This document shows positions 4,107 to 12,284 of a stretch of 64,000 nucleotides of DNA, piece after piece. Origin of the DNA: Myxococcales bacterium (GTDB lineage: Bacteria > Myxococcota > B64-G9); the NCBI GenBank assembly GCA_012798435.1, contig JAAZNF010000109.1, positions 1-64,000 on the forward strand. The letters are read 5' to 3'. The position numbers and the translations under genes were made by a program. The notes under the pieces were generated by a model. It had not been told where the DNA came from. It saw only the letters and a list, made by a program, of their open reading frames with translations, and did no database searches. Each line of letters begins with the position of its first letter. Position 1 is the first letter of the stretch.

Positions 4107-5729
4107 TTACGACCGGCGCCGGCGGATGGCGAGAAGCAGCAGGCCGAGGAGCGACAGCCCGGCCGGCGTCCCACCCGCGGTGGCGCAGCCGACGGGCTCG
4201 GGCTCCGGCTCTCCCCCGCCATCGTTGACGCCGCCCGTCCCATCCGGGAACAGCGGCACGTAGCACTCGGTCTCGCCACCCAGCACCACCTCGCACACCG
4301 AGGAGCCCTGGAGATAGCCCTGCTTGGTGGCGACCACCACGCGCTGGCCGGGTTTCACCCACAGCTCGTAGTTGCCGTCGGCGTCGGTGATGGTGTCGAT
4401 CTCGTTGTCATCGGTGTACACGCGGGCGCCCGGGATGCCGGTGCCCGTCTTGTAGTTCAGCGGATCCGGGCTGCGAGTGAGATCCACGACCTTGCCGAAG
4501 AGCTTGCCCTGGGTCGAGGGATCGCCCGTGTCGCCACCACCCGTGTCGCCGCCACCGCCGGTGTCCCCACCGCCGGTGTCCCCACCGCCGTCGTCCCCGC
4601 CGCCGTCGTCCCCACCGCCGTCGTCCCCACCGCCATCGTCCCCGCCGCCGCCATCACCCGAGGCCACCAGGCCGATCGAGCACCACACCGAACCGCCCGC
4701 GGTGACGCTGCAGGTGCGAGAGGCGGTCTGGTAACCGGCGAGCGAGGCGGTCACGGTGTAGCTCCCGGCCCCGACCGAGAACGACCAGTAGGCGTCGCCC
4801 GCGCCGGCGGTGGCCGAGCCGCCGCCCGAGATGCTCACGGTGGCGCCGGGGAGCCGGCGGCTCATGTCCGCCGTGCCCACGCCCACGTCCTGGAACACCA
4901 CGCCCTGGATGGTGGCGTCTCCGCCGCCGCCGCCGCCATCGTCACCACCACCACCGCCACCGCCGTCACCGCCGGCGAAATTCGCCAGGGCATCGGCGTT
5001 GCCGTTGAAGAGGTCGAGGTCCACGTTGCCGGAGATACCGGGCACGGTGCCCTTGTCGCTAGTCTGGAAGAACGTCCAGCGGGTCCAGGTATCCGGGATG
5101 TTCGGGCAGGTGGGGCCCCACTGGGCGATCCACAGCGCGTTGTCTCCGAAGCTGCGATCGTTGACGATGTCCACCCAGAAGTAATACCCGACGTAGATCA
5201 TGGGCTTCTTGCCCGTGCCCGCCTCCACCCGGTCCACGAAGGTTCGGATCTTGCTCGCCACGGTGGCCTTGGAGTACCCCGAATACAGGCTCTCGTCCTC
5301 GATGTCGATGGTCACCGGGAGATCCCCGGCGCCGAGCCGGCCCACCATCTCGACGACCTGGTCGGCCTGCGCCGCCGCGTCCTTGTTGGGCCGGAAGAAG
5401 TGATACGACCCGCGGACCAACCCGACCCGCCGCGCCTCGGACCAGTTGCGCGCGAACTGGGGATCGCGGAAGAAGCCGTCGCTGGTGCGGATGATGGCGA
5501 ACTTGATCCCGGAGGAGGCGACGCGGTCCCAGTTGATGGTGCCCTGCCAGTAGGAGACGTCGATGCCGTTTACCGTGGCGCCGTCGGCGCACACGCGCAC
5601 CTCCTGGAGGATTTCGGCGAAATCCCGCCCCGAACCCTCCGTCATGTCGCGCTGATTCATGCAGCCGGCGAGTGCCATGACCGCCAAAGCCAGGGTCAGA
5701 AGCTTCCAGGTCGTCCGGGAGTTGGTCAT
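4107..5729 (-). CDS. GH25 lysozyme-like lipoprotein with two carboxypeptidase-regulatory-like modules and MYXO-CTERM-like tail
   Basis: A 540-residue exported muramidase candidate. LAGC at 20-23 is a lipobox. Residues about 52-250 are a GH25 domain: GIDVSYWQG with Asp57, the DxE pair Asp142/Glu144 in TIDIEDES, WIAQWGP and DLDLFNG. These are the residues this family uses to cleave the MurNAc-GlcNAc bond of peptidoglycan. After a Gly/Asp linker, two beta-sandwich modules (near 275-350 and 405-480) resemble carboxypeptidase regulatory domains, separated by a GGGDD-type linker of about 45 residues. The C terminus has a Cys-containing spacer, LSLLGLLLLAI and RRRRS, a MYXO-CTERM-like sorting tail. 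The start has GGAGG upstream. Carrying both a lipobox and a C-terminal anchor is odd. Confidence 0.88.
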   Translation of the reverse strand: MTNSRTTWKLLTLALAVMALAGCMNQRDMTEGSGRDFAEILQEVRVCADGATVNGIDVSYWQGTINWDRVASSGIKFAIIRTSDGFFRDPQFARNWSEARRVGLVRGSYHFFRPNKDAAAQADQVVEMVGRLGAGDLPVTIDIEDESLYSGYSKATVASKIRTFVDRVEAGTGKKPMIYVGYYFWVDIVNDRSFGDNALWIAQWGPTCPNIPDTWTRWTFFQTSDKGTVPGISGNVDLDLFNGNADALANFAGGDGGGGGGGDDGGGGGGDATIQGVVFQDVGVGTADMSRRLPGATVSISGGGSATAGAGDAYWSFSVGAGSYTVTASLAGYQTASRTCSVTAGGSVWCSIGLVASGDGGGGDDGGGDDGGGDDGGGDDGGGDTGGGDTGGGGDTGGGDTGDPSTQGKLFGKVVDLTRSPDPLNYKTGTGIPGARVYTDDNEIDTITDADGNYELWVKPGQRVVVATKQGYLQGSSVCEVVLGGETECYVPLFPDGTGGVNDGGGEPEPEPVGCATAGGTPAGLSLLGLLLLAIRRRRS

Positions 5730-6059
5730 TTGAGACCTCCGGGTTCAGTTCCGCTGAACAAATAAAGCAACGACTGTGCCAGCCCGCCGCGAGGGATGAC
5801 ATGTTTATAATATTGATATTGTTGTATTATTTTAATCTGAAAATCCCGCCAGCAGAGTCGCAAACGGCAAATTGCGACTAATTGTCTCAGTTGATTTTCG
5901 CCAATGCCGGGCTCACAATTCGTGAATTTTTCATTTTTTTCAATTCGTTATCCTTTTGTTTCCGTTTTGCATGGGTATGGTATCCAGAGTTTCCACTTGC
6001 CACGAGAGCTTATCGCGGTTACCCTGTTTCCTGGGGGCGGACAGAAAGCGAGGAACCAG
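5730..6059. other. AT-rich intergenic region
   Basis: This 330-base gap between divergent genes is far more AT-rich than the rest of the window, especially 5800-5970, with long T and TATTAT runs. It must hold the promoters of the lysozyme gene (minus) and the selenoprotein gene (plus). TATAAT occurs at 5806-5811, and a plausible plus-strand pair is TTGCCA (5997-6002) with TACCCT (6020-6025). No gene is seen. Confidence 0.55.
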
Positions 6060-6383
6060 ATGCTCGAAGTAAAGGACACCGCCCGGAAAAGGCTCTCCCA
6101 ATATCTCAAGGACGAGAAGGCGGATTCCGCCTTTCGGGTCTATCTCGCCTTTGGTTGAGGAGGGCCCTCACTGGGCCTGGCTCTGGATGAGCCAAAAGAC
6201 GACGACGAGAGCTTCGAGTTCGACGGGCTGCGTTTCGTGGTGGAGAAGAGCCTGATGGAGAAGGCTGGCGACATCACCATCGACTACGCGGAGTCCGGCT
6301 GGCAGGCCGGCCTGTCCATCACGTCCAGGAACTCCCTGAAATCCTCGGGAGGTTCCTCCGACTGCGGGAGCTGCTGCTCCTGA
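6060..6383 (+). CDS. HesB/IscA-like selenoprotein (in-frame TGA = Sec at 6156-6158)
   Basis: ATG 6060 (AGGA at 6051-6054) opens a frame that reads MLEVKDTARKRLSQYL and so on to YLAFG at residue 32. It then meets TGA at 6156-6158 and continues without a break as GGPSLGLALDEP for 74 more residues to a TGA at 6381. The total is 107 residues with Sec33. The part after the TGA is family-typical: FVVEKSLMEKAGDITIDYAE and a Cys-rich end, DCGSCCS. In HesB/IscA proteins a conserved Cys occupies the position of the TGA, and a HesB-like selenoprotein family (TIGR01911, as I recall it) has Sec there. IscA-type proteins bind or deliver iron-sulphur clusters. A SECIS-like hairpin follows. A nonsense mutation is the alternative, but the intact downstream frame argues against it. 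The final TGA could also be read through. Confidence 0.85.
6178..6194 (+). promoter_or_regulatory. Putative bacterial SECIS hairpin
   Basis: TGGCTC (6178-6183) pairs perfectly with GAGCCA (6189-6194), leaving the 5-nt apical loop TGGAT. The loop starts 25 nt after the UGA and has G at its second position. Bacterial SECIS elements are described as a stem with a small loop bearing an early G at roughly this distance from UGA. A second possible hairpin (GGCCC/GGGCC, 6163-6177) would compete with it. Confidence 0.6.
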
Positions 6384-6433
6384 AGTAGCAGGGGTCTTCT
6401 CTCCAAATACCGACAAGAAAGTCGCCTCCTGTG

Positions 6434-6439
6434 GTAGAA
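6434..6439 (+). promoter_or_regulatory. -10-like element before the MopE-like lipoprotein
   Basis: TAGAAT lies 30 nt before the start codon. No good -35 hexamer is visible. The ribosome site GGGAGGT follows at 6460-6466. Confidence 0.3.
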
Positions 6440-6469
6440 TCGGGTCGATTCGAACCACGGGAGGTATCC

Positions 6470-7729
6470 ATGTCCATTCGCTGGGCACCCCTGATCCTTG
6501 CCTGTTCTTGCCTTCCGCTCTTCTTCTTCGCCACGCTCGAAGGCTGTAGCTCGAGCAAGACCACCCCAGGCGTGGAAAACTGCGCAAACCGCATCGACGA
6601 CGACGGGGACGGCGTGGTGGACTGCATCGACTCCGACTGCCGCGCAAATGCCCTGTGCCAGGGCAACACCGAGATCTGCGGCGACGGGCTCGACAACGAC
6701 CTGGACTCCAAGGTGGACTGCCTGGACACCGACTGCCAGTCCCAACCCGCCTGCTCCGAGGTCTGCGGGAACGGCGTCGATGACAACGGCGACACGCTGA
6801 AGGACTGCGACGATCCCTTGTGCCGCGGCAAGGACCCTGCCTGCGGCGAGGTGTGCGGCGACGGCACGGACAACGATGGCGACGACCTGATCGACTGCAA
6901 GGATCCCGACTGCGCGGACGTGATCCCGCCCTGCGGCGCCGGGCCCGGCCCGGACGGAACCATGTGCGCCTACGGCGGCGTCGAGCCCCACGTATGCGCC
7001 TGCGCCGACGGCAAGGACAACGACGGCGACGACACCGTGGACGGCGCCGACCTCCACTGCTTCGGGCCGTTCGACGACGACGAGGGGAGCTACGCCACCG
7101 GCATCCCCGGCGACAACAAGGGCTCGCATGGCGACGTGGAGTGCCCTTTCGACGGCAACAGCGGCATCGGCAACGACGATGTGTGCTGCAACCCCTCCGA
7201 CCCCACCCAGAACGTCACCCCCAACGGCTGCGACAACCTCGGCTGCTGCGAGGTGGACATCAACGGGAACACCACCGGCGAGCACGTCTCCGTCCGCGAC
7301 ACCTGCGTCTTCGCGCCCGCCTGCGGCAGCGCGGGGAAACACGGCTGCGCCTGTGCGGCGGACGGCGACTGCGACAACGGCCAGTATTGCCTGAAGGACG
7401 ACGACAGCGGCGCCGGCTTCTGCTCCACCTGCGCGCCCTGCGTCTCCAACCAGGCCTGTGAGAATCCCTGCGACTGCGGCGAGCAGTGTTTCGGCGGTTT
7501 CCGGCAGCCCGACAGTCTGTGTTTGCCGGGTGGCGTCTGCCCAGCCGGCGTGACCCCGTGCCCGAATGGAGACGCGGACTGCGACACGGCGGCCAACGAG
7601 AAATGCCAGAGCGGCTGCTGCCGGCCGGTGTGCGGCGAGGGGGTGGTGCCGTGCCAGACCAGCGCTGATTGCCCCACCGACGTGCCATACTTCTGCATCA
7701 CCGGCTGCTGCATCGAGGTGCCGCTGTAA
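6470..7729 (+). CDS. Cys/Asp-rich lipoprotein with MopE-like repeats
   Basis: A 419-residue secreted lipoprotein. ATG 6470 follows GGGAGGT. The signal sequence ends in a lipobox-like LEGC at about 22-25. Residues about 35-170 carry four to five repeats of the type C-N/G-x-DNDxDGxxDCxDxDC. These resemble the acidic metal-binding motif of the MopE family and Ca-binding thrombospondin-3-like loops. A longer Cys-rich region follows (CACAADGDCDNGQYC, CCEVD, CENPCDCGEQC), ending in CITGCCIEVPL. The protein probably sits on the outer membrane or outside, stabilised by disulphides and metal ions. No enzyme domain is seen. Similar domains recur in the 26821 and 60021 products. Confidence 0.8.
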   Translation: MSIRWAPLILACSCLPLFFFATLEGCSSSKTTPGVENCANRIDDDGDGVVDCIDSDCRANALCQGNTEICGDGLDNDLDSKVDCLDTDCQSQPACSEVCGNGVDDNGDTLKDCDDPLCRGKDPACGEVCGDGTDNDGDDLIDCKDPDCADVIPPCGAGPGPDGTMCAYGGVEPHVCACADGKDNDGDDTVDGADLHCFGPFDDDEGSYATGIPGDNKGSHGDVECPFDGNSGIGNDDVCCNPSDPTQNVTPNGCDNLGCCEVDINGNTTGEHVSVRDTCVFAPACGSAGKHGCACAADGDCDNGQYCLKDDDSGAGFCSTCAPCVSNQACENPCDCGEQCFGGFRQPDSLCLPGGVCPAGVTPCPNGDADCDTAANEKCQSGCCRPVCGEGVVPCQTSADCPTDVPYFCITGCCIEVPL

Positions 7730-8943: not shown

Positions 8944-11399
<2,456 letters not shown>

Positions 11400-11403
<4 letters not shown>

Positions 11404-12284
11404 CCCAACCTGGCGCGGATCCCTATCGCGGCGTGGTCGGCGCGAGCCGCGTGCTGGTGGTCGACGACGAGCCGGTGATGCTGGACACGCTGGTGCTGGC
11501 CCTGGCCGGGGAGTTCGCCGTGGCGGGCGCGGCCACCGCCGAGGAGGCCCTGCCCATCCTGCGCGACCATTCGCCCGAGGTCCTGCTGCTGGACAAGAAC
11601 CTGCCGGGCATGAGCGGGCTGGAGCTTCTGCGCATCGTGCGGCGCGACTGGCCGCACATCGAGGTGATCATCATCACCGCCTACGCCTCGCTGGAGAGCG
11701 CGGTCGAGGCGCTGCGCCTGGGGGCCTGCGATTACCTCATCAAGCCCCTGCCCCACATCTCGGTGGTGGAGGAGAAGGTCCGCTGGGCCCGCGAGCGCCG
11801 CCGCCTGCTGCACGAGCGTTACGAGATGGCCAACCAGCTGCTCTCCGCCAACGAGGAGCTGCGCCAGGCGCTGGAGCTGGCGAAGCGCAGCGAGGCGCTG
11901 TACCGCGGGCTGTTCGACGCCGTGTCCGACATGGTGTTCGTGAACCCGATCTCGCCCGAACGGGCCGTCGGCTGTTTCGTCGAGGTCAACCGGGCCGCCT
12001 GCGAGACGCTGGGGTATTCCCGTGAGGAGCTGCTGCAGAAGACCGTGCTGGACGTGTTGGCCCCGCGCGAGGCGGCCGCCCTGCCGGGGATGATGGAGCT
12101 TCTGGCTCGCGAGCCCAAGGTGCTATACGAGACCGAGGTGGTGACGCGGAACGGGCAGGGAGTCCCGGTGGAGGTGCACTCGCACCTCGTCGAGATCGGA
12201 AGCCAGCGCCTGCTGCTGTCGGTGGCGCGCAACATCCGCGACCACGTGCTGGTGGAAATCGAGCGGCCCGGCGAGCCCGGCTGA
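11400..12284 (+). CDS. Response regulator receiver-PAS protein
   Basis: A 294-residue two-domain signalling protein. The receiver (about 16-130) has the acidic pocket Asp22/Asp23, phosphoacceptor Asp65 in LLLDKNLPG, Thr93 and Lys115 in YLIKPLP, so it should be phosphorylatable. A helical linker (about 130-175) leads to a PAS domain (about 176-290: LYRGLFDAVSDMVFVN, GYSREELLQ). There is no DNA-binding, kinase or GGDEF output, so it probably acts through protein contact. It overlaps the Clp gene by 4 nt and is followed 27 nt later by the zinc-ribbon gene, so all belong to one operon. The cognate kinase is not in the window. Confidence 0.85.

Follow-up and report, generated by a model that had tools for sequence, protein, structure and literature searches.

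A UGA-interrupted gene of the IscA/HesB type

The window analyzed here is a 64,000-nucleotide stretch of DNA from a Myxococcales bacterium. Translated with TGA read as U, positions 6060 to 6380 of the forward strand give 107 residues, followed by a TGA stop codon at 6381 to 6383. The sole in-frame interruption is the TGA at 6156 to 6158 (codon 33), which lies at the conserved GC(S/G)G cysteine of IscA and is kept in relatives. The read-through product is MLEVKDTARKRLSQYLKDEKADSAFRVYLAFG-U-GGPSLGLALDEP...SSDCGSCCS; its CGSCC cluster (6363 to 6377, +) probably provides further metal or redox ligands. In nearly all relatives the tail is Gly-rich and contains two or more cysteines, usually as CGSC(S)C, compared with CGCG in IscA. 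A putative Shine-Dalgarno-like GAGGA, read from the sequence, lies at 6050 to 6054 (+), upstream of the ATG at 6060.

The sequence-only reading of this locus had described a frame that crosses a TGA at the conserved HesB cysteine and continues to a Cys-rich end, and our translation and alignment agree with it. Its expectation that the standard code would leave a 32-residue stub is accurate for the ATG at 6060, whereas mechanical ORF calling gives 84 amino acids from an upstream ATG at 5904. Annotation without selenocysteine (Sec)-aware models would truncate the gene, which is corrected here. A promoter and terminator scan gave nothing above chance, and an Rfam search of positions 5900 to 6500 returned no relevant match and no SECIS family. 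When the window was scanned for other coding frames broken by a UGA, only two weak candidates emerged, at 12282 (+) and 34630 (-); both resemble an ordinary stop between adjoining genes and were rejected.

The read-through product scores 115.1 bits against NF038090 (IscA_HesB_Se; curated cut-off, 85), with the match covering model positions 1 to 100 of 101. The family originally proposed, TIGR01911 (HesB_rel_seleno), fared less well: the alignment scored 45.9 bits (43.8 in the genome search), under the cut-off of 66.35. Since only the NF038090 cut-off is passed of the two, we replace TIGR01911 with this sister model. The product also scores 27.0 bits against the Pfam family Fe-S_biosyn (PF01521; cut-off, 26.3), and its scores against the IscA, SufA, and ErpA equivalogs (29.9, 20.4, and 23.7 bits) are far under the respective cut-offs of 150.6, 136.2, and 117. 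We assign 6060 to 6383 to the IscA_HesB_Se family as a stand-alone gene and hold with high confidence that it encodes a selenoprotein.

The UGA is conserved among relatives

A full-length NF038090 gene is present in six other genomes of the host family, and in each the frame is interrupted once, by a TGA at the residue seen in the window gene. The exceptions are G005, in which the gene is a fragment ended by the contig end, and G003, which has no NF038090 gene. Among 80 named loci in GTDB genomes, chiefly from Thermodesulfobacteriota with Myxococcota-classified Deltaproteobacteria and one Bacillaceae member (Vulcanibacillus modesticaldus), 79 are readable at this codon; 78 of these have TGA and one, from an uncultured member of the Desulfovibrionaceae, has TGC. 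The class to which Desulfogranum japonicum belongs has an NF038090 member over the cut-off in 187 of 193 genomes, and most of those listed have one in-frame TGA. Viral contigs were also searched and contained no relatives of the gene.

A conserved hairpin follows the UGA

A hairpin with a 6-bp stem, TGGCTC-TGGAT-GAGCCA, lies downstream of the UGA (5' arm, 6178 to 6183; loop, 6184 to 6188; 3' arm, 6189 to 6194, +). Folding confirmed the stem, loop, and spacing of about 25 nucleotides that had been noticed in the sequence. The predicted free energy is -10.2 kcal/mol (z score, -3.5), and none of 200 shuffled sequences was equally stable. The 25 nucleotides between the UGA and the apical loop (6159 to 6183) fall within the 16 to 37 allowed for a bacterial SECIS (PMC13188914), and the stem length and energy fall within the limits of 4 to 16 bp for the upper stem and -7.5 kcal/mol or lower (PMC13188914). 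The apical loop, UGGAU, has 5 nucleotides with G at position 2. The hairpin is in agreement with the current model for bacterial SECIS elements on every constraint (PMC13188914).

The stem distinguishes Sec genes from their Cys paralogues. At least five of the six stem pairs form in all 106 distinct Sec sequences, whereas 17 of 21 Cys paralogues form four or fewer, and the inner stem is intact in 103 of 105 Sec genes versus 1 of 21 Cys genes. The stem alanine codon is GCT in 104 of 105 Sec genes versus 3 of 21 Cys genes, a contrast between related sequences for which a raw Fisher p value is not to be read literally; elsewhere in those genes, 15% of Ala codons are GCT. The other stem codons are similarly fixed in Sec genes (Leu CTG, 106/106; Glu GAG, 104/106). 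On the protein tree, seven changes between Sec and Cys are needed, with Cys forms nested within Sec clades. Across seven independent Sec/Cys pairs, the intact hairpin goes with Sec in an average of 6.5, and the opposite never occurs, although the sign test on these pairs is modest (median p, 0.03). Further, in 14 diverse Sec sequences, 100% of stem cells are paired, and two stem pairs covary (GC/AU/UA and CG/UA). Together, these sequence patterns support the identification of the hairpin at 6178 to 6194 as a bacterial SECIS.

Several genomes of the Desulfogranum class carry tandem Cys and Sec copies of IscA_HesB_Se genes, separated by a few hundred bases (loci L156, L170, L177, L179, L182, and L194, in genomes G170, G262, G211, G155, G157, and G206, respectively). 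The tandem Cys copies have lost the hairpin to varying degrees, and the stem in L156 is newly broken (GAACCA). By sequence, they look like cases of SECIS decay following a Sec-to-Cys change. For the HesB-like protein of Desulfitobacterium hafniense, a published survey reports a change from Sec to Cys in which a SECIS-like remnant persists (PMC1794560). Tandem Cys/Sec pairs provide a natural control for SECIS decay, and comparison of Sec genes with their tandem Cys paralogues is a sharp test of which bases make up the SECIS of this family.

Two other genomes also contain HesB-like frames under the NF038090 cut-off, each interrupted at this Cys site by an in-frame UGA (L063, 6270 to 6600, in G038; L065, 5240 to 5540, in G119). 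Their SECIS stems differ by compensatory changes (GACTC/GAGTC and GTCTC/GAGAC), and the G038 frame terminates in ...GGAC-TGA.

Two other explanations of the UGA and hairpin were considered. The TGA could be a sequencing error, or the gene a pseudogene, such that the true protein contains Cys or is dead; the host assembly is a draft, and a single base separates TGA from the Cys codons TGT and TGC. Yet roughly 100 genomes, each assembled independently, share this TGA, among them those of the isolates Desulfobulbus rhabdoformis and Desulfogranum japonicum, and the silent codons after it are fixed. Frame decay after the TGA in relatives, which the sequence-only reading had named as counterevidence, was not seen, and the frames behind the UGA are open. 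Conservation of the TGA across relatives excludes error or a pseudogene for practical purposes, and we give this explanation essentially no weight. The hairpin, in turn, could be a by-product of protein conservation rather than a SECIS, since it sits in LALDEP, the most conserved peptide of the protein. However, where Cys paralogues keep this peptide or one close to it, they encode it with different codons, and 20 of the 21 have lost the stem, and distant Sec relatives, some with a different peptide (LTLDES, LSLDET), hold the stem through compensatory changes, making a by-product of the ALDEP peptide very improbable. The UGA and hairpin recur together in 106 distinct sequences and so are not a matter of chance.

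The host genome encodes the selenocysteine machinery

The draft host genome (5.05 Mb in 129 contigs) is 97.3% complete. Profile searches of this genome found selA (538.9 bits), selB (271.5 bits), and selD (356.7 bits), each over its curated cut-off. A single tRNA-Sec scores above threshold (75.6 bits; gathering threshold, 47), and ARAGORN identifies it as SeC with anticodon tca. SelD is the Cys version (TECGCAAKV). These findings bear out the earlier proposal that the organism makes selenocysteine, against which the absence of selB and tRNA-Sec would have counted; both are present. More broadly, selA is found in all 15 UGA-bearing genomes tested; as many genomes without the UGA gene also have selA, this co-occurrence is consistent with Sec insertion but not discriminating. 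In genome G000 of the host family, selD lies between genes for a small activase-like ATPase and a cysteine-desulfurase-like protein (L019, 60 to 3707; contig C100), a neighborhood that is possibly a selenium-supply operon.

Judging from the conserved features described above, Sec insertion via SelB at the SECIS is near certain. SelB carrying Sec-tRNA-Sec would bind the hairpin within the coding sequence just downstream of the UGA at 6156, and through this proposed binding ribosomes would read the UGA as selenocysteine.

Predicted structure and role of the product

AlphaFold2, run on the window protein and 30 relatives with Cys in place of Sec, gave a model with a pLDDT of 86.6 in which the final dozen residues are poorly predicted. 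Foldseek matched this model to PDB entry 1r94 (TM score, 0.71/0.77; E value, 5e-7), and the top PDB matches are E. coli IscA (1r94 and 1s98), E. coli SufA (2d2a), and [2Fe-2S]-bound IscA (1x0g). The product is thus predicted to have an IscA fold. In the alignment, U33 falls on the conserved GC(S)G Cys of IscA, which we take to be Cys35 in E. coli IscA numbering. E. coli IscA has three Cys ligands: C35, C99, and C101. In the window protein, Sec replaces the first of the IscA-type ligands, and the tail cysteines are differently spaced and disordered in the model.

The selenoprotein gene may be the only one of its type in the host. When the host genome was searched with PF01521, TIGR00049, and a canonical IscA query from a sister genome, this gene was the sole match each time, but for one short match at chance level (E value, 0.13). 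Among the nine host-family genomes (G000 to G008), an ordinary Cys IscA stands beside the Sec form only in G006. Ordinary Cys A-type carriers (IscA, SufA, or ErpA) seem to be missing from eight of the nine, unlike most of the phylum, and G003 (92% complete) seemingly has neither a Sec nor a Cys form. The searches are imperfectly sensitive (some control genomes are matched by one model and missed by another), and the completeness of the draft is 97%; the evidence is therefore only suggestive that the selenoprotein is the sole IscA-type protein of the host, as in most of its family. We consider it unlikely that the selenoprotein has fully replaced Cys A-type carriers in the host family, with a selenium ligand serving general cluster delivery and Fe-S assembly dependent on selenium. 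If it is truly the sole A-type carrier, it would offer a tractable system for the role of Sec at an IscA-type metal site.

The gene neighborhood does not suggest a function. No neighbors of the selenoprotein gene are common to the host-family genomes, and those found elsewhere are lineage specific: phosphofructokinase (PFK) and a ClpB-like ATPase in Desulfobulbaceae, FmdE in Desulfobacteraceae, and a TPR protein at Syntrophaceae-type loci. We therefore propose no operon-based function. A Clp-like gene at 8944 to 11403 of the window was considered as a linked neighbor; it is 2.5 kb away and not in sister genomes, and we take its position as coincidence. Just downstream of the selenoprotein gene, an ORF at 6431 to 7729 encodes a Cys-rich lipoprotein-like product in which Asp-rich units flanked by Cys are repeated (e.g., DNDGDDLIDC); it has no Pfam match. 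Encoded divergently at 4107 to 5729 (-) is a GH25 lysozyme-like lipoprotein whose long linker is rich in Gly and Asp.

In the role that we favor, the product would fold like IscA, with Sec in place of the first metal-binding Cys and a Cys cluster at its flexible C terminus, and would act as an A-type iron-sulfur or iron carrier in which Sec is a ligand or redox switch. We regard a carrier with Sec as first ligand as somewhat probable: the fold and the position of the metal site match IscA, and the host genome seemingly has no other A-type protein. Both observations count against the alternative that this is an IscA-fold selenoprotein acting in selenol redox chemistry or metal binding rather than as an Fe-S carrier, to which we nevertheless assign an appreciable, lesser probability. 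For this family, Fe-S ligation by Sec is hypothetical, the C-terminal Cys pattern is unlike the CGCG of IscA, and the neighbors are unrelated, with none conserved that points to an Fe-S pathway. Further, a Methanococcus maripaludis mutant disrupted in its HesB-like gene still fixed nitrogen (unpublished observation quoted in PMC11097638).

Comparison with known selenoproteins and A-type carriers

The gene adds a copy to a selenoprotein family that was already recognized in the 2000s. Selenoproteome surveys of 2005 and 2006 already list HesB-like selenoproteins (PMC1088965, PMC1794560), with carriers that include the Deltaproteobacteria Geobacter sulfurreducens, Syntrophus, and Desulfovibrio (PMC1088965, PMC1794560). 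The M. maripaludis HesB-like selenoprotein was found by mutagenesis and 75Se labeling, and the function of these proteins is described as "not clear" (PMC11097638). A 2026 review enters the family as HesB-like, with the motif UxGP and model TIGR01911 (PMC13188914). We found no treatment of selenoproteins of Myxococcota as a subject in the literature searched; our assignment now places the NF038090 family in a Myxococcota-type lineage.

The closest counterpart of the window protein is the NF038090 family itself, with a whole-length match, Sec or Cys at the same residue, and C-terminal cysteines. There is no essential difference between the two, apart from a host lineage of the Myxococcota type where the relatives found are mostly Desulfobacterota. 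The HesB-like selenoproteins of TIGR01911 (PMC1794560, PMC11097638) similarly have Sec at the UxGP site and belong to the same fold family, but the window protein scores under the TIGR01911 cut-off. The A-type carriers IscA, SufA, and ErpA have the same fold and place their first ligand Cys at the equivalent site; they differ in having Cys where the window protein has Sec and CGCG where its tail has CGSCC, and their equivalog cut-offs are far from reached.
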